Of a DNA stretch of 64,000 bases, positions 6,479-51,042 are shown one piece after another. The stretch covers positions 496,001-560,000 of the forward strand of contig NZ_SDHX01000001.1 in the NCBI RefSeq assembly GCF_004118375.1. The letters run 5' to 3'. The notes beneath the pieces are model-generated. The model ran no database searches. It was not told the origin of the DNA and saw nothing but the letters and a program-made list of their open reading frames with translations. Position numbers and translations under genes: made by a program. How positions within the stretch are numbered: position 1 is the first letter of the stretch; each line of letters opens with the position of its first letter. The DNA comes from Oleiharenicola lentus. GTDB lineage: Bacteria > Verrucomicrobiota > Verrucomicrobiia > Opitutales > Opitutaceae.

Positions 6479-6535
6479 GGCCTCACGCTAACAGTCGCGC
6501 CCGGCCGTGCGAGTCTGTTCCAGTCCGGTTGCGGC

Positions 6536-7978
6536 TCACTCGACCGGTCTGAGCTGAATCGTATCGATAGTCTGCTCGCCCGCGAGCACGTTGGTCACGA
6601 CGACCATCCAGTCGCCGGTCTGCACCCAGCCGCGGCGCAGGAGGTAGGCGAAGGCGTCGCGGATGGTCTTCTCGGGTTCGGCCCCGAAATCCATCAGGAA
6701 CGGCTCCACGCCCCACACCAGCAGCAGGTGGCGGAAGGCGACGGGGTTGTCGGTGAACGCGTAGATCGGACAGCGCGAGGCGCGCAGGGCCGACAATGTC
6801 TGCGGCAGCAGGCCGCTGCGGGTGAAGACGACGATGCCCGATTCGCCGATCTCCTGCGCCAGCACGATGGCGGAACGCAGCAGGCGGTCCTTGTGGGTCT
6901 TGAGCGGCAGGTCGGCATTGTAACCTTTCGAGGTGGTGCCTTCGATGCGGCCGGCGACGCGCTTCATGAACTGCACGCATTCGAGCGGGTAACGGCCGGT
7001 CGTCGTTTCGCCGGAGAGCATAATGGCGTCGGCGGTGGACCAGACGGCGCTGGCGATGTCGCTGACTTCGGCGCGGGTGGGCACCGGCGACTGGATCATG
7101 GATTCGAGCAGGTGCGTGGCGACGATGACGGGCTTGCGGAGGCGAATGCAGGCCTCGACGGTGCGGCGCTGGATCAGCGGCAGATCTTCCATCGGCACCT
7201 CGATACCAAGGTCGCCGCGCGCGACCATCACGGCGTCGGAGGCGGTGACGATCTCGTCGAGGTTGGCGATGGCGGACTGGTCCTCGATCTTGGCGATGAC
7301 GCGAGCGGAGCTCCCCTTTTCGGAAAGGTAGCGGCGCAGGATGTCGATGTCGTCGGCCTCGCGCACAAACGACAGCGCGAAAAAGTCCACGCCTTCCTCG
7401 ATGCCGACGGTGACATCGGCCCGGTCCTTGGCGGTGAGGGCGGGCAGGCGGACCTTCACGCCGGGCAGGTTGATGTGGCGGCGGTTGCCCAGCCTGGCCG
7501 GCACGACCACCCGGCAGCGCACGCGGGCGGACGTCGCGCTGACGACCTCGAGGCGGATGAGCCCGCTGTCCACGAGCACGGTGGAACCGGTCTGCACATC
7601 CTCGCCAAAGGACGGATAGTTCACCGAAACGGCGAGGATGCGGTGCTCGGATTCGCCCGGCTGGGGCAGGAAGTCGATGAGCTGGCCCGCCGTCAGCTCG
7701 ACCGGTTCCGGCAGATCGCCGGTGCGGATCTCGGGGCCCTTCACGTCCATGAGCAGGGCGATGTGGCGGCCGGTGCGCTGGCAGACCTCCCGCACCCGGC
7801 GGATCATGGCGCGGGTCCACGCGTGGTCGGCGTGGGCCATGTTGAGGCGGCAGACGTCCACGCCGGCGAGGATGAGGCGCTCGAGCATGCGTTCGTCGGC
7901 CGAGGCCGGGCCGAGCGTGAAGACGATTTTGGTGAGCCGGAAGGCTTCCTTGGGCAGAGTGGCGGCGGGCGGATTCAC
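6536..7978 (-). CDS. pyk: Pyruvate kinase, divergent form
   Basis: About 480 residues. It shows TKIVFTLGPAS at the N terminus, MDVKGPEIRTGD, the catalytic Lys region VIAKIEDQSAIANLDEI, ARGDLGIEV and LSGETTTGRYP. It catalyses PEP + ADP to pyruvate + ATP. The motif usually written NFSHG reads NMAHAD here, and ATQMLESM reads ATHLLESM, so it is a divergent subgroup. The start is uncertain: GTG at 7978 is chosen because it leaves room for a promoter before the divergent helicase gene; an in-frame TTG at 7996 is the alternative. It heads the minus-strand run that ends with thymidine phosphorylase. Confidence 0.93.
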   Translation of the reverse strand: MNPPAATLPKEAFRLTKIVFTLGPASADERMLERLILAGVDVCRLNMAHADHAWTRAMIRRVREVCQRTGRHIALLMDVKGPEIRTGDLPEPVELTAGQLIDFLPQPGESEHRILAVSVNYPSFGEDVQTGSTVLVDSGLIRLEVVSATSARVRCRVVVPARLGNRRHINLPGVKVRLPALTAKDRADVTVGIEEGVDFFALSFVREADDIDILRRYLSEKGSSARVIAKIEDQSAIANLDEIVTASDAVMVARGDLGIEVPMEDLPLIQRRTVEACIRLRKPVIVATHLLESMIQSPVPTRAEVSDIASAVWSTADAIMLSGETTTGRYPLECVQFMKRVAGRIEGTTSKGYNADLPLKTHKDRLLRSAIVLAQEIGESGIVVFTRSGLLPQTLSALRASRCPIYAFTDNPVAFRHLLLVWGVEPFLMDFGAEPEKTIRDAFAYLLRRGWVQTGDWMVVVTNVLAGEQTIDTIQLRPVE

Positions 7979-8065
7979 GCCCGGCTGGTAGCACAAGGGA
8001 TGCCGGGTTGCGGGGTGGGAATCTGCTGGTTAAGTGGCTGGTTTCCCGCAAAAAGGCCCGTCGCC

Positions 8066-11000
8066 GTGCCGCCACGCCCACACAAACCCTGGCCCTTCCG
8101 GATCGAGTATCCGCCCGAGCTGCCCATCAGCGCGCGGGCGGACGAGATCGTTGCGGCCATCCGGGACAACCAGGTGCTGGTGCTGGCCGGTGAGACCGGT
8201 TCGGGCAAGACCACGCAGATTCCCAAGCTCTGCCTCGTGGCCGGTCGCGGCGAGCGCGGCCGCATCGCCTGCACGCAGCCGCGGCGCGTGGCCGCCAGCT
8301 CGGTGGCCCGGCGGGTGGCCGAGGAGCTGAACGTCGGTTTCGGCCGCGAGGTCGGCTGCAAGATCCGCTTCGCCGACCAGACCTCGGGCGACACGGTCAT
8401 CAAGTTCATGACCGACGGCATGCTGCTCGCCGAGCTGCAGGCCGACCCGGAGCTGCGCGAATACGACACCATCATCGTGGACGAGGCACACGAGCGCTCG
8501 CTCAACATTGATTTCATTCTCGGCCACCTGCGGCGGCTGCGCACGCGCCGGCCCGACCTGAAGATTGTCATCACCTCCGCGACGATCGACACCGAGGCGT
8601 TTTCCAAGGCCTTTGACGGCGCGCCGATCATCGAGGTGTCGGGGCGGGTTTACCCGGTGGAGGTGATTTATTCCCCGCTCGAGGAGATGAAGGGCGAGGA
8701 GAGCGAATACACCTACCTCGACGCCGCGGCCGAGGCCGTCGGGCGCATCCTCGACGAGAGCTCGACCGGCGACATCCTCGTCTTCCTCCCGACCGAGCGG
8801 GACATCCGCGAATTGCGCGACCTGTTGGAAGGGCGCAAACGAAGCCGGCTGGAGGTGGTGCCGCTCTTTGGCCGGCTGACCAACGCCGAGCAGCAGCGTG
8901 TTTTCACGCCCACGCAGGCGCGCAAGATCGTGCTCGCGACCAACATCGCCGAGACCTCGCTGACGATCCCCGGCATCCGCTTCGTGGTGGACACCGGGCT
9001 CGCGCGTTTCAGCCGTTACGTGCCGCAGAGCCGCACGCGGCGGCTGCCCGTGGAGCCCGTCTCGCAGAGCAGCGCCGACCAGCGCAAGGGCCGCTGCGGC
9101 CGCGTCAGTGACGGCGTGTGCATCCGGCTCTACGCGGAGCAGGATTTTCTCGACCGTCCGCGCTTCACGCAGCCCGAGATCCAGCGCAGCAACCTCGCGG
9201 ACGTGATCCTGCGCATGAAGGCCTTCGGCCTCGGCGACATCGAGGAGTTCCCGTTCCTGAACGCCCCGCCGGCCAAGGGCATCCGCGCCGGCTACGCACT
9301 GTTGCACGAGCTCGGCGCGATTGATGAGGCGGGCGTTCTTACCGATCTCGGCCGCGAGCTGGCGCACCTGCCCGTGGACCCGACGGTCGGCCGCATGATC
9401 CTGCAGGCCCGCACGGAGAAGGCCCTGCGCGAGGTGCTCATCATCGCCGCGGCGCTCAGCATCCAGGACCCGCGGGAGCGTCCGATGGATGCGCAGCAGA
9501 AGGCCGACGCCGCGCACCGGCGCTTCACGCAGCCGGATTCCGATTTTCTCACGCTGCTCTCGATCTGGGAGGCCTACCACGACGAGTTCGAGGCGATGAC
9601 GCTCGGCAAGCTGCGCAAGTTCTGCACCTCGCACTTTCTGTCGTTCATGCGCATGCGCGAGTGGCGCGACGTGCACGGCCAGCTCGAGGACACCTTGCGC
9701 GAACGCGACGGCTTTGCGCATTCGTCGGTCTATGACGGCTTGAAGAAGGGGCAGGAGCTGAAACTCGATCTCGGCACGCCCGCCTACGCGGCGATTCACC
9801 GGTCCATTCTCGCCGGCCTGCTGGGCAACGTGGCCACGCGCACGGACGAAGGGGATTACCACGCCGCGCACGACCGGCGGGTGAACGTGTTTCCCGGGTC
9901 CACGCTCTTTGAGAAGCGGGAGCGAGATTCCAAAAACAACCCGACCGGAGGCCGGGCTTCACCCTCCAAGCCGAAGGTCGCAAAGTGGCTCATGGCGGCG
10001 GAGATCATGGAGACGGCGCGGCTCTACGCCCGCACCTGCGCGCGGGTTGATCCGCAGTGGATCATTGGGCTCGGGTCACATCTCCTGCGGGTGGCGCACA
10101 GCGAGCCGTTCTGGAGCGCCGATGCCGGACGCGTGCTCGTGAAGGAGCGGCGCCGGCTCTACAACCTCGAGTTGGAAACCCGCTCGGTGGGCTACGGAAA
10201 GATCAACCCGCTGCATGCCACGGAGATTTTTATCCGCGAGGCGCTGGTCGGCGACACGGTGACCTGGCCCTTCGATTTTCTCGCCCACAACCGCAAGCTG
10301 CGTGAGCAGGCCGAGGAGCGCCTTACCCGGCTGCGCAGCTCGGGCTACATGAACATCGACGAGGCGCTGTATCGGTTCTACGCGAAGGAGTTTGAAAAGG
10401 TGGAGCCCGCGCTCAGCGCCGGCTTTCCGGAGGACCAGGCCAACCCGCGCGGAGCGAGGATGCCACCCCAAGGCATCAGCAGCGTGCCCGAGCTGATTGA
10501 CTTTGTTCGTCACCAGCAGACCACGAACCCGAAGTTCCTGTTCCTGCGCGACGAGGACCTGCGCGCGGCCGAGGATGATGCGCATGATGCGGAGGCTTTC
10601 CCCGAGGCCCTGCCGATCAGCAACCAGGTGCTGCCGCTGAGCTACGCCTACCAGCCCGGCAAGCACGACGACGGTGTGACCGTGCGCGTCTCGCTCGCCG
10701 AGGCGGAGGCACTGTCGCCCGCCGCACTCGACTGGGCGGTGCCGGGACATTTGCCGGAAAAGGTGGAACTGATGCTCAAGGCCCTGCCGAAGGAGCAGCG
10801 GCGTGGCCTGATTCCATTGACCGAGACCGCGCAAAGGCTCGTGCGCGAGCTGGCATTGATTTCGTCGCGTCCGAAGCAGCCCACGCTGGCCGAGGCGCTG
10901 GCTGAACTCTTGCAGCCCCGGCTCGGGGTGCGGATCGATCCGACGACTTGGTCGGCGAAAGGTTTGCCCGACCACCTGCGCGTGCGGGTGGAGGTGGTGG

Positions 11001-38643: not shown

Positions 38644-38686
38644 GCGGGCCCTGCTTCCGCCCGCGGGCCGCCGTCAGTTGGCGGCC
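38644..38686. terminator. Candidate bidirectional terminator
   Basis: Two GC-rich hairpins, GCGGGC / GCCCGC (38644-38664) and GGCCGCC / GGCGGCC (38666-38686), lie between the convergent thiamine receptor and lipoprotein genes. The second loop contains the lipoprotein stop codon. There are no T tracts. Confidence 0.4.
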
Positions 38687-39303
38687 TGCGTCGGGGGGCG
38701 CTGGTCGAGCAGCAGCCGGGCGTTTTTCGTGTCAACGGGCAGGGTGAGCTCCCGCCCCGGGTTTTCGCCGATGTAATCGATGCAGGCGGAGGCCAGCGCG
38801 TCGAGGTAGGGGGCGAGCTGCTGCTTGGTGTCGGTGATCTTGGTCTTCACGCTCCACAGTTCGGCTCCCTCCTTGCCGGCGGCGTCGGGCACGGCGCGCC
38901 CGGTGATCTCGATCGTCTTGTCGTAAACCACCACCGCCTTGGAGTCGGGCGGCGGCAGGAGACCGGCGCCGAGCATGATGTCGGAATTGCGCTGCGTGAC
39001 GATCTTCACGTAGCCGTGGCCGATGCCGTAGCTGGCCTCGATGACCATGTCGGGTTTGGTGCGGGCCGGGACTTCGTAAAGGCCCCGGGCGGCAAGGGCG
39101 TCCCGGATGGCTTCCACGGCGGTGTTCTGGAGCGCGGGCTCAACGCCGCCGGTGGGGTCGTTCACCTCGAGGTGGTAGGAGGCGCCAAGCGGTTTGTTGC
39201 GGTCGCTGATGGCGTCGATGGTGACGTCGTGAACCGTCGTGCATCCGGTGAAAATTGCGGCGAGCAGCAGGCCGCCGGAAATGGTCAGGCGCGAATATCG
39301 CAT
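38674..39303 (-). CDS. DUF4136-like lipoprotein
   Basis: A 209-residue lipoprotein; lipobox FTGC puts the lipidated Cys at C21, with Thr at +2. The mature domain (YHLEVNDPTGG, AIRDALAARGLYEVPARTKPDMVIEASYG) has the shape of DUF4136 proteins, in which a short N-terminal strand is followed by a helix and a PD-hydrophobic motif. It is a paralogue of the next gene upstream on the same strand. Function unknown; the C terminus is rich in charged residues. Confidence 0.82.
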   Translation of the reverse strand: MRYSRLTISGGLLLAAIFTGCTTVHDVTIDAISDRNKPLGASYHLEVNDPTGGVEPALQNTAVEAIRDALAARGLYEVPARTKPDMVIEASYGIGHGYVKIVTQRNSDIMLGAGLLPPPDSKAVVVYDKTIEITGRAVPDAAGKEGAELWSVKTKITDTKQQLAPYLDALASACIDYIGENPGRELTLPVDTKNARLLLDQRPPTQAAN

Positions 39304-39362: not shown

Positions 39363-40118
39363 CTACATGCCCTTCTTGATGAAGGTCACCACCTCGTCGC
39401 CCTCGTTGATCTTCACGGGCTTCGATTCCTTGGTGTTGGTGCCGATGTAGTCGGCGGTGGCCGAGGCGAGGATGGGCATGTATTTCCGCAGCTCCTGGCT
39501 GTTGTCCTCGGCGGAGACGTTCACGCTCCAGACCTCGGGCGGCGCGCGGCCCTCCGTGGCCTCGCGATTTTCGCGGGCGGAGAGCTTGAGGAACTTCTCA
39601 TACACCACGACCGGGTGAACGGATTCCTGCATGCCGAGAAACTCGGTGGTGCCCGGCACATACACCTGCGTCTGGACCTCCACGGTCTCGAAGGTGCCAT
39701 CCGGGCGCCGGCGGGTCACGTAACGCGTTTCGGTGACGTAACGGCCGGGTTGCTGCACGATGATCGGCTGGCTGATGGTCTCGAACTTGATGCGCGGGGC
39801 ATCCATGCCGTAGTCGATGTCGATTACGACGTCGGCCTTCTCGGGGGTGGGCGCTTCATACATGCCCTTGCCGGAGAGCGCGGTCCGGACGTAGTCGGCG
39901 ACCTCCTTGTAGCGGAGGCTGCTCTCTTCCAGCTGGGGGTTCTGGCTGCGGATGTGGTAGGACTGCGCCGAGGCGGTGGCCGGGCCGGTCTCGGCAGGCT
40001 GGGCGATGGCGTCAACCTGGACGGTGTAGGTCTTGCTGGAGTCGCACCCGGTCAGCAGCAGGACCAGGATTCCGGCGGCCGCGGCCGCAATACTTCGCTG
40101 GAGGTGGCTTGAGTTCAT
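39363..40118 (-). CDS. DUF4136-like lipoprotein, paralogue
   Basis: A 251-residue lipoprotein with lipobox LLTGC (C25). Asp at position +2 would, by the E. coli Lol rule, keep it in the inner membrane. The central region (SYHIRSQNPQLEESSLRYKEVADYVRTALSGKGMYEAPTPEKADVVIDIDYG) parallels the adjacent lipoprotein but has an extra ~50-residue insertion with RYVTETRYVTRRRPDG. The two genes are 59 bases apart and probably form one transcript. No enzymatic motif. Confidence 0.82.
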   Translation of the reverse strand: MNSSHLQRSIAAAAAGILVLLLTGCDSSKTYTVQVDAIAQPAETGPATASAQSYHIRSQNPQLEESSLRYKEVADYVRTALSGKGMYEAPTPEKADVVIDIDYGMDAPRIKFETISQPIIVQQPGRYVTETRYVTRRRPDGTFETVEVQTQVYVPGTTEFLGMQESVHPVVVYEKFLKLSARENREATEGRAPPEVWSVNVSAEDNSQELRKYMPILASATADYIGTNTKESKPVKINEGDEVVTFIKKGM

Positions 40119-40156: not shown

Positions 40157-40810
40157 TCAGTTCGGCCTGACGGCATCCGCAGACGGGGCGCTGGCGGTGG
40201 TGGCGGAGGTGTTCTCGACCGGGGCGTTCTTCAGGCGGGCGAGTTCCTCTTCCAGGCGGACGATCTCGGCCTCGGTGGACAGCAGCTTTTCGTTGGCATC
40301 GTCGAGGGCCTTTTTCTTGTTTAGGGCGGCGTTGCGCTCCTCGCGCAGCTTGGCCAGCCGGTTGGCGGCGTTGTCCACCTTCTTCTGGGCCTCGGTCAGT
40401 TCGAGATCGGAAATCTGGAAACCCTGCGCGACGGCCATCTCCTCGTCGAGGAGCGCCTTGTTCTTGGCCTCCTCGGCCCGCTTGCGGGCGAGTTCCTGCT
40501 GGTAGGCGCGTTCCTGGGCGAGGCGGTCCTGTTCCTTGCGTTCCTTCATTTCCTGCGTGAGGCCGACGATGCCGCCGATGATGGCGCCGGCCCCCGCGCC
40601 CGCGAGCACGCCCTGGCTGCTGTTGCCGCTGGCGCTGCCGGCGAGGCCGCCAACGACCGCGCCCGCCGCCGCGCCGGTGCCCGCGCCGGTGACGGTCTTG
40701 GACGGGGCCACCTGGCAGCCCGCGACGCAGATGATAATGCCGGCCATGATGCTGCCGGTTAACGACCGCCGCAGCCGAGTGGAGGCGTGGACACCTTGGG
40801 GGTGGTTCAT
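40157..40810 (-). CDS. Glycine-zipper lipoprotein with C-terminal coiled coil
   Basis: A 217-residue lipoprotein; lipobox CVAGC (C32). Residues ~42-80 hold two glycine-zipper segments (GAGTGAAAGAVVGGLAG and GAGAGAIIGGIVG), which insert in or associate with membranes. From ~85 to ~200 a long charged heptad-rich region predicts a coiled coil. The combination resembles outer-membrane-anchored structural or peptidoglycan-spanning proteins. It is first in the minus-strand three-lipoprotein cluster. Confidence 0.83.
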   Translation of the reverse strand: MNHPQGVHASTRLRRSLTGSIMAGIIICVAGCQVAPSKTVTGAGTGAAAGAVVGGLAGSASGNSSQGVLAGAGAGAIIGGIVGLTQEMKERKEQDRLAQERAYQQELARKRAEEAKNKALLDEEMAVAQGFQISDLELTEAQKKVDNAANRLAKLREERNAALNKKKALDDANEKLLSTEAEIVRLEEELARLKNAPVENTSATTASAPSADAVRPN

Positions 40811-40941: not shown

Positions 40942-41802
40942 ATGGCCATCCTCTCCCGCAACAAGGGTATTTTCTCCCGCGACTTCCTCGTTCCCAACAT
41001 AGGCCTCCTGGCCTCGATCCTTCTGGTCTGGATCTTTTTCGTGACGGTGGTCAACCCGCGCGTCAGGGAGGTGGAGATCACCCAGCGACTCGCCGCCGCC
41101 GGCCAGGCCGCCGACAAGAACAAGGCCGCCCAGCGCTCAATCTACATCATCATCAAGGATCCCGAGCAGGCCGTGGAGATCGCGCTCTGGGTCTGGGCCA
41201 CGATCATCCTCACCTACAAGCTCATCGAGGTCGGGCGCGAACGCTCGCTGCTCAAGCACGACTTCATCGGCGTGCGGCAGGGCGAGCGCATCATCCCGGA
41301 GGACGCGCTCGACCGCTACAAACAGATGAAGGAGGCCGTCGAGGCCACGCCCCGCTGGCAGGAGCGCCTGCTGCCGGATTTCCTGCTGGCGGCGCTGCAC
41401 CGTTTTCAGGCGACCAGTTCCGTCCAGGATGCGGCGAGCGCGGTCAAGGAACGCGCCGAGCTCGTGGCCGACAACCTCGACTCGGAACTCTCGCTCATCC
41501 GCTACATCGCGTGGGCCATCCCCGCGGTCGGTTTCATCGGCACCGTGCGCGGCATCGGCGACGCGCTCACGCATGCGGAGGAGGCGATCAAGGGTGATCT
41601 CAGCGGCGTGATCTCGGCGCTCGGCCTCGCGTTCAACTCCACGCTGGTGGCGCTGATCCTCAGCATGGTCCTCATGTATATGCTGCACATGCTGCAGTCG
41701 CGGCAGGAGGCGCTGATCCTCGAGCTGCAGAACTACTGCCGCGAAAAGCTCGTCCACATCATGCGCGTGCCGCTGCGCGAGGCCGATTCCACGGGAGCCT
41801 GA
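40942..41802 (+). CDS. MotA/TolQ/ExbB-like proton channel protein
   Basis: A 286-residue membrane protein. TM segments are predicted near 20-37, 65-82, 192-212 and 228-258. The last two carry the family pattern (WAIPAVGFIGTVRGIGDAL, then GVISALGLAFNSTLVALILSMVLMYML), matching the pore helices of TolQ/ExbB/MotA. It should conduct protons and power a partner. It is the first gene of a tight operon: three bases separate it from the actin/Hsp70-like gene. No canonical ExbD/TolR gene is present; the two VWA proteins take that place. Confidence 0.88.
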   Translation: MAILSRNKGIFSRDFLVPNIGLLASILLVWIFFVTVVNPRVREVEITQRLAAAGQAADKNKAAQRSIYIIIKDPEQAVEIALWVWATIILTYKLIEVGRERSLLKHDFIGVRQGERIIPEDALDRYKQMKEAVEATPRWQERLLPDFLLAALHRFQATSSVQDAASAVKERAELVADNLDSELSLIRYIAWAIPAVGFIGTVRGIGDALTHAEEAIKGDLSGVISALGLAFNSTLVALILSMVLMYMLHMLQSRQEALILELQNYCREKLVHIMRVPLREADSTGA

Positions 41803-41805
41803 CCC

Positions 41806-43293
41806 ATGAGCACCCTCGGCATCGAACTCTGTGACGCCGGCTTCGAGGCGGCCTTCCCCCGCGACGGTCATGCCGGTTACCCGCTGCTCGAGACCGGCGG
41901 CCCGCTGGGCTGGCTGGGCCTGGCCTACCAGGACGGCGCGAAGACGAGCTTCGGCCCGCCGGCCGAGGAATTCTGGCACGCCCGGCCCAAGCAGGTCACG
42001 CACGAGCTGTGGAGCCGGCTGTCCCACGACGCCTCGCCGCTCGGGCCGGCCGGCAAGCCGCAATCCTACTCGCAACTCGCCTACTTTTTCCTGCGGGACT
42101 ACCTCGGGCGGGTGAACTCGGTTGCCGGCGCTCCGGCCAAGGCCGTGCTGGCCGTGCCCGGCGAATACTTCCTCGACACGGCCACCGAGGAGGAGCGCAT
42201 CGGCCTGCTGCTCGGCATGGCCCACGAGCTGAAGCTGCCGCTGGCCGGCATCGTGGACATGGCGTCGGCCGCCCTGTGCGACACCCGGATCGATTACTTC
42301 GACCGCCAGCTGCCACTGCTGATGATTGATGTCCACCTCCGCGGCGCGGAGCTCACGCTCTTCCAGCCGGAAGCGGACGGGCGTTTCGCGCGCCGCGACT
42401 TCGCGAAGGTCTCGCACGCGGGCTTCAACGACCTGCTGCGCCACCTCACGACCACGATGGCCAACCGGTTCCTGCGGCACACCACCTTCGACATCCAGGA
42501 GGACGGGCGCATCGGGCAGGCATTCTACCGGCAGACCAAGGAATTTTTGCTCACGGGCGTGATGGGTTACCACTACCAGATCAACACCGGCACGCGCACC
42601 TACGAGCTTGTGGCCACCCGCGACCAGCTGGCCACGGACCTTGCGGCCTTCAACCAGGCGTTGCTCCAGGGCGCCCAGGCGATCCTCAAGAAGAGCGCCG
42701 GGCGCGCGCCGCGTTGCACGGTCGCCCTGACCGCCCGCGCGGATTTGCTGCCGGGCCTGGCCGGGGTGCTGCATGCGGCCGGTTTGGCACGCGTCATCCA
42801 TCTGCCGCCCGGTGCCGCCGCGTGCGGCGCCGCCCGGCTCGGCGCCAGCCGCGAAGCGCCCGCGCAGATTGACGACGTGCCGGTCGAGACCGCGGTGCCC
42901 GCGCACCTGCTGCCGGAACCGTCCGCCGAGCGGCTGATCATCCGTCTGGTCAAAGCCCGGCGCACGGCGCTGGCCCGGCGGCCGACGCACGCGCTCTGCG
43001 AAGGGCTGGGCCATCCGCTCGACGGCCAGAAGGTTTTCACCATCGGCCCCGCCACGCTCTCGCCCGACCTCACGCTGCCGGAAGAGTTCGACGACCTCGG
43101 GCCCGGTGGGCAGGTGCTGCTTGAGCAGCGGGACGGCCTCTGGTGGCTGCCGCCTTCGCCGCTCACGCAGCTCGCCGAGCGCGCGCTCATCGAGCCCGGT
43201 GACCGCCTGTCCATTCACCACGGGACGCACGAAACCGAGGTGCTGTTCGCCTACTGCCCCGACGGTGGCGCCGCCCCGCATCGTCAGGTTTGA
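41806..43293 (+). CDS. Actin/Hsp70-fold (ASKHA-like) protein with C-terminal FHA-like region
   Basis: A 495-residue cytoplasmic protein. The N terminus LGIELCDAGFEAA and the later LLMIDVHLRGAELTLFQ look like the two phosphate-binding hairpins of the actin/Hsp70 fold, and AKAVLAVPGEYFLDTATEEERIGLLLGMAHELKL fits the helical connection of Hsp70-like proteins. The phosphate-loop residues differ from the usual DxG, so nucleotide binding is uncertain. The last ~90 residues (KVFTIGPATLSPDLTLPEE, then LIEPGDRLSIHHG) look like a degenerate FHA domain that could bind phosphothreonine. It lies between the channel and VWA genes. Confidence 0.6.
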   Translation: MSTLGIELCDAGFEAAFPRDGHAGYPLLETGGPLGWLGLAYQDGAKTSFGPPAEEFWHARPKQVTHELWSRLSHDASPLGPAGKPQSYSQLAYFFLRDYLGRVNSVAGAPAKAVLAVPGEYFLDTATEEERIGLLLGMAHELKLPLAGIVDMASAALCDTRIDYFDRQLPLLMIDVHLRGAELTLFQPEADGRFARRDFAKVSHAGFNDLLRHLTTTMANRFLRHTTFDIQEDGRIGQAFYRQTKEFLLTGVMGYHYQINTGTRTYELVATRDQLATDLAAFNQALLQGAQAILKKSAGRAPRCTVALTARADLLPGLAGVLHAAGLARVIHLPPGAAACGAARLGASREAPAQIDDVPVETAVPAHLLPEPSAERLIIRLVKARRTALARRPTHALCEGLGHPLDGQKVFTIGPATLSPDLTLPEEFDDLGPGGQVLLEQRDGLWWLPPSPLTQLAERALIEPGDRLSIHHGTHETEVLFAYCPDGGAAPHRQV

Positions 43294-43308
43294 GCGAGGG
43301 CCGCCGCC

Positions 43309-44373
43309 ATGCTGAAAGGCAAACGTCGCGAGACCGAGGTGTTCAGCATGTCCTTCATGGACTGCATCTGCTGCGGCTTTGGCGCGGTGTTGCTGCTGTT
43401 CATCCTCACCACGGGCCAGAAAGCCGACCACAGCGAGGAAACCGTCGAGGAACTCAAACAGCGGGTGGCCGAGATGGAGAAGGAGATCACCAAGGAGCAG
43501 GATGTGCTCGCGAAGATGGCGCGTCCCGCGGCCATGACCGCCGAGCAGCTTGCGGCCGTGAAGCAGGAGAATGAAAACCTCAAGCGCAAGGCAGACGAGC
43601 TGGACGCTGAACTCAAACAGCTGCTGCGCCAGCTGGCAGCCTTGAAGAATGAAGAGGCCAAGCTGCTGGCCGACCTCAAGGCCATGCCCGAGGAGGAGCA
43701 GCAGCCGGTGCCCATCCCCGAGGTTGACCGCCGCCAGTATCTCACCGGCGTGCAGATGGAGGGCAGCCACGTGCTGTTCATCGTGCGCGCCTCGGGCAGC
43801 ATGCTCGGCGACACCATCGACGAGGCCGCGGCGCGGCTGGATGATCCCGATTTCAAGAAACGCGAGGCGCCCAAGTGGCAGCGCGTGATCAAGGCGCTCG
43901 AGTGGCTGGTGGCCAGTCTCGCGCCCGACACCAATTTCCAAATCCTGCTCTTCAACGACGAGACGATCCCGCTGGTGCCCGACCGGGGCGAGGGCTGGAT
44001 CTCACGCGGCGACCGCCCCGGCGTCCAGCAGACCCTGACCAAGCTGCGCCAGGTCGTGCCCAAGGGCTCGGCCAACCTCGAGCGGGCCTTCAACCAGGTG
44101 CGCTACATGCCCACGCTGCCCGATGCCATCGTGCTCATCACCGACGGCCTCCCCACGGCGAGCGAGGGTTCCCCCGATGCCTCCAGCACCGACGATGACA
44201 CCCGCATGCTCTTCCTCCGGCAGGCCGTGCGCCAGCTGCCCCCGCGCATCCCGGTGAGCACGATCCTCTTTCCCACGAGCGGTGATCCCGGTGCGCCCGC
44301 GCTTTATTGGGAGCTGGCCGGCTTCACCAAGGGCGCGCTCGTCAGTCCCTCCGCCGACTGGCCCGACACATGA
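43309..44373 (+). CDS. Membrane-anchored VWA-like protein, degenerate MIDAS
   Basis: A 354-residue protein. The N-terminal membrane segment has VFSMSFMDCICCGFGAVLLLF (about 11-31). A coiled coil follows (about 42-125) and then a VWA-like domain (about 145-345). The usual MIDAS DxSxS reads RASGS at residues 160-164, so metal binding may be lost. The layout (one short N-terminal TM, coiled coil, periplasmic domain) resembles ExbD/TolR/MotB partners of proton channels. The stop overlaps the next start (ATGA). Confidence 0.82.
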   Translation: MLKGKRRETEVFSMSFMDCICCGFGAVLLLFILTTGQKADHSEETVEELKQRVAEMEKEITKEQDVLAKMARPAAMTAEQLAAVKQENENLKRKADELDAELKQLLRQLAALKNEEAKLLADLKAMPEEEQQPVPIPEVDRRQYLTGVQMEGSHVLFIVRASGSMLGDTIDEAAARLDDPDFKKREAPKWQRVIKALEWLVASLAPDTNFQILLFNDETIPLVPDRGEGWISRGDRPGVQQTLTKLRQVVPKGSANLERAFNQVRYMPTLPDAIVLITDGLPTASEGSPDASSTDDDTRMLFLRQAVRQLPPRIPVSTILFPTSGDPGAPALYWELAGFTKGALVSPSADWPDT

Positions 44374-45413
44374 TCCGCCGCTCCAACGTTCCGATCTTCA
44401 GCCTGTCGTTCCTGGACTGCATCTGCTGCGGCTTCGGGGCGATCATCCTGATCTTCGTGCTGACGATGGGCTCGCAGACCAAGGTCGTGCAGGAGCTGCG
44501 CGAGCGTCTGCAGCGCATCATCCAGCAGCAGCTCATCACGCTCGCGGACCTGCGCCGCAGCCAGGAGGAGATCCTCATCACCCAGGCGCTCGCCGCGGAT
44601 TCCACGCTCGCCGAGCAGGACAAGGAGACACTCAAGCAGCTGCTGGCGCGCCTCGACCAGCAGGTGGCCGAGCAGAAGGCGGCCCGCGACCGGCTGCTCG
44701 TGGACGTCGCCGAGATCAAGACCGACCTTGCCGCCCGCCAGAAACCGAAGGAGGTGGAGCTCAAGGCCGTCGAGCCTTCGCCCATCGGACTGCCGGCCTT
44801 CAGCACGCACGTGGCCTTCATCATCGACAGCTCGGGCTCCATGCGCGACCCCAACTCCGAGCGGATCTGGCCCATCGTGCTGCGCAAGTTTGACGAGGTG
44901 CTCGATGCCTTCCCCGAGGTGAAGGGCATCCAGTTCCTCGATGCCGACGGACGCTTCATCCTCGGCGGCCGGCAGGCCGAGCAGCGCTGGCTCCCCGACA
45001 ACGACAACAACCGCAAGGCCATCAAGGAGGCGCTCTTCAATTACGATATCTTCAGCAACAGCAATCCCGTGCCCGGCATCGTGCGCGCCCTGCGCACGCT
45101 GCTCGACGAGAACGACAAGGAAATGCGCATGACCATCTTCATCCTGGGCGACGAGTTCACCGGCACCGCGGACGCCGTGATCCGGCGTCTGGACGAACTG
45201 AACCCCAAGAATGAGGAGGGCAAACGCCGGGTGATCATCAATGCGATCGGGTTTCCCACGGCGGTCAAAATGGGTTTCTCCATGGGCAACACCGGTGTGA
45301 AATACGCCAACCTGATGCGCGAGGTCTGCTTCCAGCACGGCGGCGCCTTCATCGCCCTGCGAGAGATCGAGGAACGCGACGACCGCGAAGCCGAGCGGGA
45401 ACGCGGGCGCTGA
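44370..45413 (+). CDS. Membrane-anchored VWA protein with intact MIDAS
   Basis: A 347-residue protein paralogous to the preceding one and translationally coupled to it. The N terminus has IFSLSFLDCICCGFGAIILIF, one TM segment with Cys at 17, 19 and 20. A coiled coil follows (about 38-120) and a VWA domain with an intact DSSGS MIDAS starting at D153 and later Thr/Asp positions (ILGDEF). It probably binds a ligand through a divalent metal in the periplasm. Last gene of the plus-strand operon. Confidence 0.88.
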   Translation: MIRRSNVPIFSLSFLDCICCGFGAIILIFVLTMGSQTKVVQELRERLQRIIQQQLITLADLRRSQEEILITQALAADSTLAEQDKETLKQLLARLDQQVAEQKAARDRLLVDVAEIKTDLAARQKPKEVELKAVEPSPIGLPAFSTHVAFIIDSSGSMRDPNSERIWPIVLRKFDEVLDAFPEVKGIQFLDADGRFILGGRQAEQRWLPDNDNNRKAIKEALFNYDIFSNSNPVPGIVRALRTLLDENDKEMRMTIFILGDEFTGTADAVIRRLDELNPKNEEGKRRVIINAIGFPTAVKMGFSMGNTGVKYANLMREVCFQHGGAFIALREIEERDDREAERERGR

Positions 45414-45627: not shown

Positions 45628-46815
45628 TCAGATGCCGAGGATCCAGCGCAGCAGTTGCACGATGTTGAGGCTGCTCTGCTGCTGTTGCTGCTGCGAGGGC
45701 TGGCCGGGTTGGCCGGGCTGCCCCGGTTGTCCCGGCTGACCGGACTGGCTGGAACTGGAGCTGGAGGAGCTGGAACTGGAGGAACTTTGCTGCTGCCGGG
45801 ATTGCTGTTGCTGCTGGGAGGGACGTCCCGGCTGGCCCTGCTGAGACGACGGCTGGCCGGGCATGGCGACCTGGAGGCCCTGCTGTTGTTGCTGTTGCTG
45901 GGATGAAGATTGTTGCTGGCTGCTCTGCTGACCCTGCTGGCCGCTTTGTTGGCCGCTCTGCTGGCTGCGACTGTTGCTGCTGCTGCGCTGCCCCTGGCCC
46001 TGCGAGCTGCCGTCGGCCACGCTCTGGCCTTCGTTGGAATACTGGCCGGGTTGAGAATCCTGGCCGTTCTCCGCGCCGTCGCCGTCCATGTCGCTGTCCT
46101 GACCGTTGGGCACGCCGTCGCCGTCCATGTCCCCATCCTTGGAATCGCTCACACCGTCGCCGTCGAGGTCGCCGTCAGCCGTGTTGGGAATGCCGTCGCC
46201 ATCCATGTCACCGTCGTTGTGATTCTCGATGCCGTCACCGTCCATGTCGCCGTCTTGCTCGTTGGGCACGCCGTCGCCGTCCATGTCGCCGTCCTGGCGG
46301 TTCGGGATTCCGTCGCCGTCCATGTCGGGATCCTCGTGGTCGGCGATGCCGTCGCCGTCCATGTCGCCATCGCCGCCGGTGGGCTTGCCGTCGAGATCGT
46401 GGTCTTCCTTGCCGCCGCCGCCTTTCTGGCCGCCGCCTTCGCCGCGCCGGCCCATTTCGCCGCTGAAGGTGAACTTCACGACATCGATCTCGCTGGTATC
46501 GAGGGTGGGCCGGGTGCGGATGGCCGCATCGCGCACGGCCTCGAGTTCCCAGCGCGCCTTGCGGGCGGAATCCTCGTCGGCGAGCGGGCCGAAGAGGTAG
46601 GTCAGGTTCTCGTGCTTGTAGCGCACATACCAGCCCTCGTCGCTGGGGCCGAGGCCGGTGATGTTGATGCCGGCATATTTCTCGTTGAACTCGGTCTCCG
46701 CCAGCTGCCAGAGCTCGGCGATGCCCTCGACGGGCAAGATGACGGTTTTGGCCGGGGCGCCGGTGGCGAGCAGACCGAGCAGGAGACAGGGCAGGAGGCG
46801 TTTCATGGGCGACAT
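45628..46815 (-). CDS. Secreted Asp-rich repeat protein (thrombospondin type 3-like) with Gln/Ser-rich tail
   Basis: A 395-residue protein with a signal peptide (ending APA, about residue 22) and a ~100-residue N-terminal domain. Then come eight 13-residue repeats of the form DMDGDGxPNxxDG, a calcium-binding EF-hand-like / thrombospondin type 3 pattern. The next ~170 residues are nearly all Gln, Ser, Gly and Pro, and the protein ends with a short hydrophobic helix (NIVQLLRWILGI). The ATG overlaps the upstream stop (TGATG), so it is coupled to the Gln-rich gene. Confidence 0.85.
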   Translation of the reverse strand: MSPMKRLLPCLLLGLLATGAPAKTVILPVEGIAELWQLAETEFNEKYAGINITGLGPSDEGWYVRYKHENLTYLFGPLADEDSARKARWELEAVRDAAIRTRPTLDTSEIDVVKFTFSGEMGRRGEGGGQKGGGGKEDHDLDGKPTGGDGDMDGDGIADHEDPDMDGDGIPNRQDGDMDGDGVPNEQDGDMDGDGIENHNDGDMDGDGIPNTADGDLDGDGVSDSKDGDMDGDGVPNGQDSDMDGDGAENGQDSQPGQYSNEGQSVADGSSQGQGQRSSSNSRSQQSGQQSGQQGQQSSQQQSSSQQQQQQQGLQVAMPGQPSSQQGQPGRPSQQQQQSRQQQSSSSSSSSSSSSSQSGQPGQPGQPGQPGQPSQQQQQQSSLNIVQLLRWILGI

Positions 46816-47486
46816 CAGAGGCCCTTGGGGATGACCTTGCCCTTCTCAACGCCTTGGTTGCGGTTGTTACCCTGCTGGCCGGGTGGAACGGGTTTCTCGT
46901 ATTGTTGGGCCTTGCTTGGCTCGTTGCCGACCATGTCAGGAGTTTGCGGGACGGTCTGGATCTGCAGCGTGGCGTCGCCGATCTTCATGTCGCGGGCGCT
47001 GCCCTGCTGGGGACCGCCGGCCGGTTGAGGCTGCCCTTGCAGGCTTTGGGCCTGGGCGCCCACGGCCTCGCCTTGCGATCCACCCTGGGCGACTTGTTGG
47101 GCAGAGGCGCCGCCTTGCTGCTCGGCCTGTTGCGGTTGCTGCTGCCCGCCGCCGCCCTGTTGCTGCTGGGCGGATGGATCGGGTGCAGAGGCGCTTTGCG
47201 GGCCAGATTTGGGCGAGACGCGATCCTGCTGCTCGGCTTCCTGCTCGCCCATCTCGATCTCGGAGATCATGCCGTAGAGCGGTCGTTTCTCGGGTTCATA
47301 TTTCGAGCCGTCGAGCAACTCGGGATCAGGCAGCACCCCTTTGGCCTTCACGGCGCCCTTGGCCGCCGGGTTTTGTTTCGCGCGGGGAGTGGCAGCGCCC
47401 GGGGCGACCGGTGGAGTGGAAGACTGGGCGACGGCCTCGCCAGCGATCAGGGCGGCGAGGAGGAAGGGCAGGGGGGTAAGCTTCAT
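46815..47486 (-). CDS. Secreted Gln-rich low-complexity protein
   Basis: A 223-residue protein with a signal peptide (about 1-20, ending AVA) and a short ordered region (DPELLDGSKYEPEKRPLYGMISEIE), followed by a long Gln/Gly/Ala-rich stretch and ending GVEKGKVIPKGL. No family is recognised. It lies between the TPR/PEGA-like gene and the DMDGDG gene with nine-base and overlapping junctions, so all three belong to one operon. Such extensions usually sit in the periplasm or cell wall. Confidence 0.72.
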   Translation of the reverse strand: MKLTPLPFLLAALIAGEAVAQSSTPPVAPGAATPRAKQNPAAKGAVKAKGVLPDPELLDGSKYEPEKRPLYGMISEIEMGEQEAEQQDRVSPKSGPQSASAPDPSAQQQQGGGGQQQPQQAEQQGGASAQQVAQGGSQGEAVGAQAQSLQGQPQPAGGPQQGSARDMKIGDATLQIQTVPQTPDMVGNEPSKAQQYEKPVPPGQQGNNRNQGVEKGKVIPKGL

Positions 47487-47495
47487 GGCGCGGGG

Positions 47496-49196
47496 TCAGC
47501 GGTTGGCGCGGAGGGTGCAGGCCACGCTGACCACCGGCGGGGTCGAGCCGTTCCGCACCTGCAGCACGAGCAGGACATCCTGGTAGCCCTTGCGGCGGCT
47601 CACGATCTCGTAGTTGCCGGGCAGCATCTTGACGGTCTGCGAGGTGATCTTGCCGAGCATGCGGAAGTTGCTGATCGAGACCCAGCAGTTGCCGTCGGAC
47701 TGGAAGGTCACGTCCACCGGCTTGCTCTGCAGGTTGAGCACGTTGCGGAGCTGGCTCACGCGGTCGGTCATGGCGAGGTAGGCGGGCTTGATCTCCATGG
47801 CCTCGTTGAACGAGCGGATGCCCGCCTGGAATTCGGCGCGCTGGGCGTGGGCCTCGGCGATGTCCACGAGCTTGTTGTATTGCATCAGCGTGCGGATCAT
47901 CTTGCCCGTGCGGAAATAGCCGTCCTTGGCCTCGACGTGGTTGGCGTCGAGCTCGATGGTCTGGGCGTAGGCGCCGCGGGCCTGCTCCCATTCGTATTTG
48001 TTTTCGTAGGCGAGGGCCTTGCCGAGCGCGGTCTTCACGGCCTCGCGGTGCGCGGTTTCCTTGGTCTCCGCGAGGGCCTTCTTCACCTTCTCGTCCTTCG
48101 GATCCACCTTGAGCGCGCGTTCATAGGCGGCGATGGCCTTGTCCCACTGGGCCGCGTCGCGGTGCGTCGTGGCCTCGGCCAGCGCGCTGTTGAGCTCGGT
48201 CTCCTTCTTGAGGCGCTCGTTGCGGGCCTTGCCCTGCTGGGAAACGGCCGAGAAGGCGTCGAGCTCGAAGGCCTTGCCGTAGGATTCGGCGGCGAGCGCG
48301 TGTTCCTTCTTCTGCTCATAGGCCTCGCCTTGGAGGATCAGCGCGCGCACGCGGTCGGCGACCTCGGCGCGCTTCAGGCCCTGCAGGGCGATCTCGTTGG
48401 CCGGGTCCTTTTCCAGCGCGGCCTGGAAGGAGGCGAGCGCGCGGGGCTTGTCGCCGGCGGCCACGGCCTCGAGCGCCGTGCGCATGTTTTCGTCCACAAA
48501 ATCCTTCAGCGCCTGCTCGGCCCGGTCGAGGGCGGCGAAGGCGTCGTCGAACTGCTTCTTGGCGGTGGCGAAGCTGCCGTTGAGGTAGAACTCGCGGCCG
48601 GCGCCGGCGGAGGCGAACGCCGTCTCGAATTCCAGCGCGGCCAGCGGGCGGGCGCGGTCGAGCTCGCGCATGCGGGCCAGCACCTCGTCGTAGGCTTTCT
48701 GCGTGCTCTGCTTCAGCTTCACGTTCTCGCTGAAGGCGTCGATCTCGCGGCCCAGGGTGGTGAAGTGCGCGTAGGCCGCGCGGTAGTTGCGACCCTCCAG
48801 CAGGAGCTCGCCGTCGAGGAAGGATTTTTCGATGAGGATGAGCTGGTTCAGCTGGCTCTGGTGGTCCTGCGGGAGGCGGCGGATCTCGGCGAGGGCCTTG
48901 GCCACGTTTTCGCGGGCGAGGCTCGCCTTGGATTCGCTGACGAAGACCTGGCCCGGGTCGGTCTCATCCACCGTCTGGACGGCGGCGGTCGGGCGGAGGA
49001 ACTGGTCGCCGACGACGAGGCGGACGCCGCGGATGACCAGCCCCGCGAGAATGAGCAGCCCGAGCGTGCCGCCGAGGGTCCATCCCACGATGCGGAGCAG
49101 GGTCCAGGGTTTGGCGCCGTTGGCTCGTCCGTGATCCGGGTCCCAATGAATTACCCGACGTTTCCGGTTGGTGGAGGCATCCGATGAATCACTCAT
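47496..49196 (-). CDS. Membrane-anchored TPR protein with C-terminal PEGA-like domain
   Basis: A 566-residue protein. A basic N terminus (RKRRVIHWDPDHG) precedes one membrane segment (about 36-60). The rest contains several TPRs, most clear at ALAEATTHRDAAQWDKAIAAYERALKVDP, and long charged helices. The C-terminal ~80 residues (VDVTFQSDGNCWVSI, then MLPGNYEIVSRRKGYQDV) match the PEGA-type beta fold. It is the first gene of the minus-strand operon that converges with the channel/VWA operon and may be its scaffold. Confidence 0.86.
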   Translation of the reverse strand: MSDSSDASTNRKRRVIHWDPDHGRANGAKPWTLLRIVGWTLGGTLGLLILAGLVIRGVRLVVGDQFLRPTAAVQTVDETDPGQVFVSESKASLARENVAKALAEIRRLPQDHQSQLNQLILIEKSFLDGELLLEGRNYRAAYAHFTTLGREIDAFSENVKLKQSTQKAYDEVLARMRELDRARPLAALEFETAFASAGAGREFYLNGSFATAKKQFDDAFAALDRAEQALKDFVDENMRTALEAVAAGDKPRALASFQAALEKDPANEIALQGLKRAEVADRVRALILQGEAYEQKKEHALAAESYGKAFELDAFSAVSQQGKARNERLKKETELNSALAEATTHRDAAQWDKAIAAYERALKVDPKDEKVKKALAETKETAHREAVKTALGKALAYENKYEWEQARGAYAQTIELDANHVEAKDGYFRTGKMIRTLMQYNKLVDIAEAHAQRAEFQAGIRSFNEAMEIKPAYLAMTDRVSQLRNVLNLQSKPVDVTFQSDGNCWVSISNFRMLGKITSQTVKMLPGNYEIVSRRKGYQDVLLVLQVRNGSTPPVVSVACTLRANR

Positions 49197-49295: not shown

Positions 49296-49333
49296 ACGGC
49301 GGTTCGTTGCGCGGGCAGATTTTACCCACCCGC

Positions 49334-49361
49334 TTGCAAATGCACAACGCGTGCCTATTTC
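49334..49361 (+). promoter_or_regulatory. Candidate promoter of the M48 peptidase gene
   Basis: TTGCAA (49334-49339) and TATTTC (49356-49361), 16-base spacer, 30 bases upstream of the ATG at 49391. Confidence 0.35.
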
Positions 49362-49390
49362 TCGGAGCCGGTTGTAATGCCATCCACCGC

Positions 49391-50215
49391 ATGAGCACCC
49401 TCGCCCGCCCAGCCTGTCTCGGCCTGCTTGCCTGCCTGTTGGCGGCGCCCGGTTGCTACAAGGTGCCGGTCACCGGCCGCGCCGCGGTCAACATGGTCTC
49501 CGACGAGGCGGTCATCAAGGTGAGCCAGGAGGCCTTTGCCGATTTCAAGAAACGCTACCCCGTCACCCGCAACCGCGCCTACGACCAGCGCGTGCAGCGC
49601 ATCGGCGAGCGGCTGGCCAAGGTCGCGTTCTGGGACGTGCCCGCCGCCGAGTGGGAGTTCGTCGTGCTCGAGGCGCCCGACCAGATCAACGCGTTCGCCA
49701 TGGCCGGCGGCAAGGTCGGGGTCTTCACCGGGCTGTTCAAGATCGTGCACAATGACGACCAGCTCGCCTCCGTCCTCGCCCACGAGATCGCCCACGTGGC
49801 GGCCAAGCATGTGAACGAGCGGCTCTCCCAGGCCATGGCCATCCAGGGCGGCGGCCTCATCGTGAGCGGCGTCATGTCCACCACCGGCGCCGGGGCGCTG
49901 ACCTCCAACGCCGTGCTCGAGGCCTACGGGCTCAGCACCGGCATCGGCGCCACGGGGTTTGACCGGAAAAAGGAAAAGGAAGCCGACCACATCGGGCTCA
50001 TCTACATGGCCCGCGCCGGCTACAACCCCGAGGAGGCGCCCAAGGTGATCGAGAACCTCGAGCAGGCCAACGCCGGCCGGGCGATGCCCCCCGCCCTCCT
50101 TTCCACCCACCCCAGCTACCCTGAGCGAATCCTGCAGATGATCGACCTGATGCCAAAGGCGCTTGAGATTTACCGGCAGAGCAGCCAGAAGCAGGCACCG
50201 CAGCTGGTGAAGTAG
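49391..50215 (+). CDS. M48 family metallopeptidase lipoprotein (BepA/LoiP-like)
   Basis: A 274-residue lipoprotein starting MSTLARPACLGLLACLL, lipobox AAPGC (C22). The zinc motif HEIAH is at 131-135 and the third ligand Glu is in EKEADHIGL. The upstream YKVPVTGRAAVNMVS and the NAFAMAGGKVGVFTGL segment are typical of M48C periplasmic proteases, which degrade or assemble misfolded outer-membrane proteins. It is anchored to a membrane facing the periplasm. Five bases separate it from the TonB-C gene. Confidence 0.94.
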   Translation: MSTLARPACLGLLACLLAAPGCYKVPVTGRAAVNMVSDEAVIKVSQEAFADFKKRYPVTRNRAYDQRVQRIGERLAKVAFWDVPAAEWEFVVLEAPDQINAFAMAGGKVGVFTGLFKIVHNDDQLASVLAHEIAHVAAKHVNERLSQAMAIQGGGLIVSGVMSTTGAGALTSNAVLEAYGLSTGIGATGFDRKKEKEADHIGLIYMARAGYNPEEAPKVIENLEQANAGRAMPPALLSTHPSYPERILQMIDLMPKALEIYRQSSQKQAPQLVK

Positions 50216-50220
50216 TCACC

Positions 50221-51042
50221 ATGTCACCTCTCAACTTCCGGGCCACCCTGTTCCGCCGCGTGCGCCAAGCTGCGGCCGGCAGCGGGATTTTTTTGACCCT
50301 GCTCGCGACCGCCGCCGCCGCCGCGACCGAGGCGGCCGAGGCGTCGGCCGGCAGCGCGAACCGGCAGTCCCCGGTCGTGCTGCGCCGCGTGACGCTGGAT
50401 TTTCCACCGGAATTGAAGAAGGAACTCGTCCAAGGCTCGGTCATGCTGGAGTGCCTGGTGGACACCGAGGGCAAGGCCCGGCAGATCCACGTGGCCGAGG
50501 CCACGCACCCGGCCTTCGCCCGCGTGGCCGTGGAGTCGCTGGAGCTCTGGGAGTTTGCGCCGGGCACGATCAACGGGCAGCCGGCGCCCATGCGCATCCG
50601 CGTGCCCTTCGAGTTCCAGCTTTCTTCCCAGGAAATCCTCGAGACCGTGGCGGGCCGGCCGGTATTCATGGAGGTGCGCGAGACCGTGATTCCGGCCTCC
50701 CAGCTGCCGAATTGGCCCCGCCCGAAAAATTTCTACATCCCGCGCTACCCGCCCGAGCTCGAGGGCAGCGGCAAATACGGCAAGGCGGTGGTGAACATCA
50801 CCATCGACAAGGAGGGCCGGGTGATCAACCCGCGCCTGGTGAAGGCCACCTATCCCGAGTTCGTGGCCCCGGCCCTCATCACCGCCCTGAAACTGGAATT
50901 CCCGCCCCAGGTGATGGCCAACCGCGAGGCCATCCACGTGAATCTCGACATCCAGTTCGACTTCAAGGTGCCCGACAAGGACCAGCGCGCCGCGGACAAG
51001 GCCAAGGCGAAGGCGAAGGCGGAGAAGGCGAAGCAGAAGTGA
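50221..51042 (+). CDS. Secreted protein with two tandem TonB C-terminal domains
   Basis: A 273-residue protein with a signal peptide (about 1-35). Two TonB-C-like domains follow (about 50-140 and 165-255), each with the strand-helix-strand layout (GSVMLECLVDTEGKARQIHV, then KAVVNITIDKEGRVINPRLV). The protein lacks the Pro-rich span of TonB and the N-terminal membrane anchor seems to be a cleavable signal. It ends with a Lys/Ala-rich tail. It may bind TonB boxes or peptidoglycan, or be a periplasmic relative rather than an energy transducer. Confidence 0.85.
   Translation: MSPLNFRATLFRRVRQAAAGSGIFLTLLATAAAAATEAAEASAGSANRQSPVVLRRVTLDFPPELKKELVQGSVMLECLVDTEGKARQIHVAEATHPAFARVAVESLELWEFAPGTINGQPAPMRIRVPFEFQLSSQEILETVAGRPVFMEVRETVIPASQLPNWPRPKNFYIPRYPPELEGSGKYGKAVVNITIDKEGRVINPRLVKATYPEFVAPALITALKLEFPPQVMANREAIHVNLDIQFDFKVPDKDQRAADKAKAKAKAEKAKQK

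Follow-up and report, generated by a model that had tools for sequence, protein, structure and literature searches.

Gene content of the locus

The stretch of DNA analysed here (the window, 64,000 nucleotides) corresponds to positions 496,001 to 560,000 of contig NZ_SDHX01000001.1 of Oleiharenicola lentus (assembly GCF_004118375.1) and contains, at 40942-45413, four co-directional genes (designated A, B, C and D) for a TolQ/ExbB/MotA-type channel subunit, a protein with the nucleotide-domain fold of Hsp70 and two membrane-anchored proteins with von Willebrand factor A (VWA) domains. The four open reading frames (ORFs) had been proposed in an initial annotation made from the letters of the sequence, and their positions and junctions (3, 15 and -4 bases) were borne out by the coordinates of the ORF list; the last 4 bases of C are also the first of D. 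The genes of the block, with the evidence used for each, are as follows.

40942..41802, + strand: A, TolQ/ExbB/MotA-type channel subunit, 286 residues (PF01618, TolQ profile match, pore Thr)
41806..43293, + strand: B, Hsp70 nucleotide-domain fold with FHA-like tail, 495 residues (DnaK profile match, model)
43309..44373, + strand: C, VWA protein with a single transmembrane (TM) segment and a coiled coil, VRASGSM, 354 residues (VWA_3, TM Asp18, survey of the metal-ion-dependent adhesion site, MIDAS)
44370..45413, + strand: D, single-TM coiled-coil VWA protein, DSSGSM, 347 residues (hhalign to C, TM Asp16)

Channel subunit A

A was matched to PF01618 (MotA_ExbB) in a Pfam profile scan with E=3.5e-14 and 53.1 bits (curated cut-off 22.9), and TolQ sequences were the only solved relatives found by profile at E<=0.1 (E=0.0014); the annotated MotA/TolQ/ExbB-like channel, and the TolQ/ExbB profile similarity on which it hung, were thus recovered. 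The pore-motif threonines T201 and T234 and the pore motifs GTVRG and NST were invariant in 15/15 aligned sequences, and GTVRG together with FNST was carried by 30/30 A frames of the fetched loci, from which frame 3426-4469 of L033, a weak A match that represents another channel, had been left out. A simple hydropathy scan gave three TM-like segments (20-38, 77-95 and 227-245) and placed the first pore motif, GFIGTVRG at about residue 200, under its cut-off; A would have four TM helices.

The paired VWA proteins C and D

C scored 27.1 bits against VWA_3 (cut-off 27, E=5.1e-6), while D, which carries DSSGSM, matched VWA_2 at E=0.063, the best member of the D family reaching E=4.6e-5 and VWA being matched in 2 of 13 members. 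C and D aligned with each other over their full length (300 columns, hhalign E=2.4e-36) and are, judged by this alignment, a diverged paralogue pair over the whole of that length. Each has one TM-like segment near the N-terminus (hydropathy scan) and, between this segment and the VWA region, a coiled coil of about 90 residues (profile matches to coiled-coil proteins). The designation as two single-TM coiled-coil VWA proteins was therefore retained, for C by its score over the VWA_3 cut-off and for D by its family members and its homology to C. When the C and D profiles were compared with solved structures, the matches listed were mostly coiled-coil proteins and no VWA chain was recognised by name (for one profile search among the best 60 of 127).

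The TM segments share the motif SF(L/M)D-x-I-x-CGFGA with an Asp at the start of the helix. This Asp was invariant in the alignments (C Asp18, 13/13; D Asp16, 13/13), was present in 61/61 C/D frames (31 C, 30 D) and sits, by eye, where the Asp of TolR/ExbD does. No ExbD family (PF02472) was present among the Pfam matches listed for C (best 25 of 43 families), for D (6 of 6) or for their family members; the genome itself gave 8 ExbD matches at E<=0.001, none of them within the window and none identical with C or D. In the VWA region D153, S155 and S157 of D were invariant (13/13), and the first Asp of the MIDAS motif DxSxS was kept in 30/30 listed D frames. The corresponding position of C was replaced in 23 of 31 frames (10 Arg, 13 Glu; Arg in the C of the window) and kept in the other 8, namely in order-mate L037 and in seven more distant loci. 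Since the MIDAS Asp is kept in D and mostly replaced in C, the pair is, on these residues, asymmetric at the metal site.

The Hsp70-like protein B

The B protein of the window had no match in four family libraries. A profile of 15 B sequences matched Geobacillus DnaK over positions 3-344 (E=2.8e-10), and an AlphaFold2 model calculated from the same 15-sequence alignment (predicted local distance difference test, pLDDT, 86.5) superposed through its residues 1-351 on Hsp70 nucleotide domains with Z ~32 and a root-mean-square deviation of ~3 Å over ~340 residues (VIA); profile and fold together uphold the actin/Hsp70-like identity first given to B. For full-length B the Foldseek and VIA matches listed were Hsp70-type chains (best 50 of each), those of VIA covering only residues 1 to ~365. 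Because these full-length matches were all of the Hsp70 type, the last ~115 residues were folded alone and gave a beta domain (pLDDT 88.5), the FHA-like tail at about 375-482. The best Foldseek match of this tail had E 0.05 and none reached 0.001; FHA domains were named in 5 of the first 12 rows, and other rows are of proteins that bear an FHA domain. PF00498 (FHA) was matched in 2/15 B members. With the fold rows and these two members in its favour and a best E of 0.05 against it, the FHA-like tail of the initial annotation is retained as a possible assignment.

For the reading of catalytic residues Escherichia coli DnaK was added to the alignment, to which the B profile itself matched weakly (6.0 and 11.2 bits). 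The catalytic residues considered are D8, K70, E171, D194 and T199 of DnaK. The position of D8 was Glu and that of D194 Asp in 15/15 B sequences, E171 was kept in 0/15 and T199 in 1/15, the glycine loop of Hsp70 was lost, and the K70 position fell in a gap in 15/15, which may reflect a limit of the alignment. By this alignment B keeps two acidic phosphate-loop positions, is without most of the hydrolytic set of Hsp70 and probably does not hydrolyse ATP. No TM-like segment was found in B by the hydropathy scan, and the protein is therefore probably cytoplasmic.

Distribution and gene order

Among 57 relatives searched (own genome included), B was found in 15 and D in 16. A lies directly upstream of B in 15/15 B-bearing relatives and A-B-C-D are contiguous in 13/15; in G020 the contig ends inside C, and in G044 A-B and C-D are on different contigs. 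One further relative, G047, has A-C-D without a recognisable B. Of 387 phylum genomes, an identical set of 23 was matched by C (E<1e-60) and by D (E<=1e-15); at E<=0.001 the C search had given 53 genomes, 30 of which had weak matches only (best E >1e-6, mostly to the coiled coil/VWA region) and were dropped, and the phylum searches may have missed genes, as scoring was limited to 3 candidates per genome for H3 (see below) and to 5 for C and for D. A-B-C-D is present in 16 of the 23 (in five of these B matches weakly), B-C-D next to a contig end in 1, A-B-C with D on another contig in 1 (G201), C-D alone with no adjoining A or B in 1 (locus L076 of G337), and A-C-D without B in four order-mates of family f11 (L083-L086). 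The four genes thus stay together in relatives, as had been expected of them. Because B is missing from the four A-C-D order-mates, it is an accessory part, frequent and not universal.

A B gene 90 per cent identical to that of the window was found in a metagenome-assembled genome of the Verrucomicrobiota by a contig scan with a single B sequence, which finds close relatives only. No D relative was confirmed in viral contigs (119 pattern matches) and no C relative was found in plasmids, and carriage by phage or plasmid was rejected on these grounds.

Two loci were recorded separately. G028 carries a second, diverged A-B-C-D block (L098, G028:C300, 4360-9032) with a B match of 2e-6 only, which is perhaps of the same type as the blocks of the phylum's distant families. 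In G044 the A-B pair (L035) is directly followed at 6338-9020 by frames resembling, by eye, a PIN-type toxin, a Vsr-type nuclease and a DNA-cytosine methylase; other contigs hold C-D, G2-G3 and H3.

Flanking envelope genes

Neighbour clustering and profile searches outlined a wider conserved region around A-D, in which G3, G2 and, in some loci, G1 are divergent from A, and H1, H2 and H3 are convergent with D. The four-gene scope given at first therefore describes a tight block correctly and misses flanking genes that seem to belong to the system (G3, G2, H1-H3). In the window these are as follows.

38674..39303, - strand: G1, lipoprotein-like relative of G2, membership uncertain
39363..40118, - strand: G2, DUF4136-like lipoprotein, putative system member
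40157..40810, - strand: G3, glycine-zipper lipoprotein with coiled-coil tail, divergent from A, putative system member
45628..46815, - strand: H1, probably exported, with thrombospondin type 3 (Asp-rich) repeats and a Gln/Ser-rich tail, putative member
46815..47486, - strand: H2, Pro/Gln-rich protein, perhaps exported (by eye), doubtful putative member
47496..49196, - strand: H3, single-TM TPR protein, 566 residues, co-occurring partner

The Gly-zipper match of G3 is below the cut-off, and its alignment has an invariant GC and invariant glycines; G3 adjoins A in most loci of family f1, in G040 and in three f11 loci. G2 matched DUF4136 at E=1.2e-4, also below the cut-off, and adjoins G3 even in L107 and L108, where neither gene is close to A. 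The profiles of G1 and G2 select the same frames, and G1 is not found in every locus. The lipobox scan was a simple pattern that missed several G2/G3 members, and no count was drawn from it. H1 matched TSP_3 at E=6.1e-7, has an N-terminal hydrophobic segment and adjoins H3 in loci both linked and unlinked to the motor genes, with H1/H2 beside H3 in many loci. H2 has no hydrophobic segment over the cut-off of the hydropathy scan. H3 has TPR repeats and one TM-like segment.

Co-occurrence was counted for H3 and D, with 16 of the 57 relatives having both, 1 H3 only, 0 D only and 40 neither (Fisher p ~3e-13); the H3-only relative is G049, in which the contig starts inside A. In the 387 phylum genomes the counts were 20, 2, 3 and 362 in the same order (p ~3e-28). 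The genomes are related, so that these p-values overstate the evidence. Within one genus D is present in 8/21 genomes, and the same 8 have H3. H3 and D are ~0.6 Mb apart on one contig in G033, 2.2 Mb in G267, 0.8 Mb in G230 and 0.3 Mb in G216, and are on different contigs in G032, G044, G047 and G056, with both genes of G044 lying a few kb from contig ends, so that linkage is possible there. Given the patchy presence within a genus and the far-apart sites, synteny alone does not explain the co-occurrence. For G3, counted at E<1e-38, a cut-off set after the list had been seen, 14 of the 57 relatives have both G3 and D, 1 has G3 only, 2 have D only (among them G047, which has a weaker G3 beside A) and 40 have neither; owing to the choice of cut-off this trend is weaker evidence than that for H3.

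In three of the four f11 loci (L084-L086), which lack B, A nonetheless has a divergent neighbour encoding a G3-like lipoprotein.

Relation to published motors

Paired vWA genes beside a tolQ-like gene, with no TolR/ExbD, were described in 2025 and predicted to replace TolR/ExbD in a 5:2 motor; according to the main text of that paper (PMC12204202) the hosts of the vWA-pair type are Proteobacteria and Verrucomicrobia, the heterologous pair has a transpore helix with a conserved Asp, AlphaFold3 models put the vWA helices inside the pentamer, and, for the other vWA family, which is TonB-like, a TPR gene co-occurs in the PVC group and deletion phenotypes are said to be unreported. The present genes share with its TPH-vWA family (Fig. 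4c,d legend; Idiomarina type) the tolQ-like gene, the heterologous vWA pair, the conserved Asp of the TM helix, the lack of an adjoining tolR/exbD and the Verrucomicrobia hosts. They differ from it in the Hsp70 fold, the MIDAS asymmetry, the glycine-zipper protein and the TPR partner, none of which is given for this family in the main text of PMC12204202 (no mention there of Hsp70, DnaK, ASKHA, MIDAS, metal, heterodimer or glycine zipper, and no TPR partner for the vWA-pair family). Judged by gene arrangement, the vWA pair and the conserved Asp, the core very probably belongs to this predicted motor class. That paper's first family of vWA transducers (TolA/TonB-like, with SHLS, tolQ, a tolR pair and the TPR gene of the PVC group) shares, as far as the main text describes it, the vWA tip, the TolQ-like motor and a TPR gene; it has a tolR pair and SHLS, whereas here no TolR/ExbD is found in the window, the vWA proteins are paired and SHLS is absent from the TM region of 26 listed C/D N-termini.

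With TolQR, ExbBD and MotAB the system has in common the PF01618 channel, the pore Thr and the Asp at the TM start, and it differs from them in its energised partner, a VWA pair without an ExbD profile match. With DnaK/Hsp70, B has in common the nucleotide-domain fold over ~350 residues; it differs in being without most of the hydrolytic residues and in having an FHA-like tail where Hsp70 has its substrate-binding domain. The vWA/FtsZl1 operons (PMC2875224) likewise combine vWA proteins, some with a TM segment, with a cytoskeletal-type partner; their partners are of the tubulin, GTPase and OmpA types, and TolQ, ExbB and Hsp70 are not mentioned in the main text of that paper. Two other papers (PMC7159879, PMC12505986) concern other systems, and no other description of the combination of a motor, an Hsp70 fold and envelope genes was found in listings and abstract openings of the open-licence literature.

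Two statements of the initial annotation change in this light. The statement that no known proton-driven motor has a VWA domain for its energised partner has been superseded by PMC12204202, and the term undescribed no longer applies to the core, which is predicted in the main text of that paper; it may still apply to what look like additions to the published class, namely B with its Hsp70 fold, the asymmetry of the metal site and the envelope genes that co-occur with the motor. An ASKHA-type protein as a part of the machine holds as far as the fold of B goes and has to be restricted, B being absent from four order-mates and G047 and eroded in its catalytic residues.

Interpretation

The reading that we consider probable is a trans-envelope machine encoded by about eight genes, with an ion-driven 5:2 motor of the TolQ/ExbB/MotA type at its base. 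The channel would consist of five A subunits, and one C and one D would insert their TM helices into its pore, where the Asp of C and D would meet the Thr ring of A; this placement is proposed because of the homology and of published AlphaFold3 models of what seems to be the same arrangement. Ion flow would turn or shift the C/D pair, the coiled coils of ~90 residues each would carry the motion into the periplasm, and the VWA tips would act on a partner there, D binding a metal-dependent ligand through its intact motif, of which C would mostly be incapable. B may be a cytoplasmic Hsp70-fold adaptor, most likely docking on the cytoplasmic loop of A at about residues 96-185 and gating or placing the motor, and the lipoproteins G2 and G3 and the TPR protein H3 with H1/H2 may supply the outer side. 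The observations behind this picture are gene order, folds, conserved residues and co-occurrence, from which stoichiometry, ion flow, motion, docking, the contacts between parts and any cellular task are inferred. A more specific version, a modular motor of about eight parts with an asymmetric vWA heterodimer that has one metal-binding tip, a catalytically dead, cytoplasmic Hsp70-fold clutch and lipoprotein and TPR outer partners, is put forward tentatively.

Known 5:2 motors use a homodimer, which mostly contacts the cell wall. With a naturally asymmetric pair each Asp could be mutated on its own, and the need for both in every step could thereby be probed directly. The co-occurring genes provide specific candidates for the outer side of a motor class known so far from prediction only. 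An inactive Hsp70 fold in the cytoplasm would be an unusual means of coupling that compartment to such a motor.

Several observations weigh against the machine as drawn. The TM regions of C and D gave no significant hhalign match to the N-termini of six ExbD/TolR sequences (L090, L095 and L096 were left out of this comparison, having no ExbD N-terminus that matched the pattern), and a TolR-like role is therefore assigned to C/D on account of their geometry, the Asp, the gene context and the published models. B is missing from the A-C-D loci of the four f11 genomes and of G047, and in the five distant A-B-C-D loci the B-like genes have weak matches of 20 to 99 bits. D occurs without H3 in G143, G201 and G233, and H3 without D in G156 and G363; at E<=1e-10 a G3-like match is found in 37/57 relatives, and genomes without the motor carry such matches at ~1e-33 to 1e-35. 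H3, G2, G3 and H1 are tied to the motor by co-occurrence or synteny only, in sequence comparisons of relatives that are not independent samples. The system is patchy (16/57 and 23/387 genomes), and nothing observed points to a cellular task.

Of three other explanations, an ion-gated chaperone or export device, in which B is a working Hsp70-like ATPase that feeds substrate while A-C-D energises passage or surface display and H1/H2 are cargo, is unlikely and yet fares best. It would account for the Hsp70 fold of B, for the two acidic phosphate-loop positions kept in 15/15 and for the many loci with H1/H2 beside H3, but it has to accommodate a B without E171 and without the glycine-rich loop and with K70 in a gap, an FHA-like tail in place of the Hsp70 substrate domain, and A-C-D lineages without a recognisable B. 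Slightly less probable still is an operon that does no work and senses surface contact or envelope strain, with A as a non-rotating channel and C and D as anchored sensors or adhesins: adhesion and protein contacts are, in the main text of PMC12204202, the roles for which VWA domains are chiefly known, and the FHA-like and Hsp70-like regions might serve in signalling, but the invariant TM Asp together with the pore Thr is the motor signature of the vWA family according to the same text. Anti-phage defence of the Zorya kind, in which an ion motor would detect infection at the envelope and pass the signal on to an effector, is the least probable of the three and was rejected, as the similarity of A to ZorA (20.1 bits, E=5.9e-5) and of C to ZorB in the TM/coiled-coil region (E=0.0031) is only weak and, for all that the patchy distribution and the restriction-type-looking genes after A-B in L035 (by eye) would suit it, no PADLOC match was obtained for B or D at E 0.01, no Zorya effector genes were seen in the block (PADLOC run on A-D alone), a peptidoglycan-binding domain is absent among the Pfam matches listed for C and D, A is short, with 286 residues where the ZorA models have 461 and 505, lipoproteins and a TPR protein make up the conserved neighbourhood, and viral contigs gave no confirmed D relative.

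Further observations on the flanks

The Asp-rich thrombospondin type 3 run of H1, followed by its long Gln/Ser-rich tail, is seemingly unusual for a small exported protein. On the other strand after H3, at 49307-51042 of the window, metallopeptidase-like and TonB-like genes are seen by eye; this pair stays with H3 in many loci of the same family, even far from the motor (L104).

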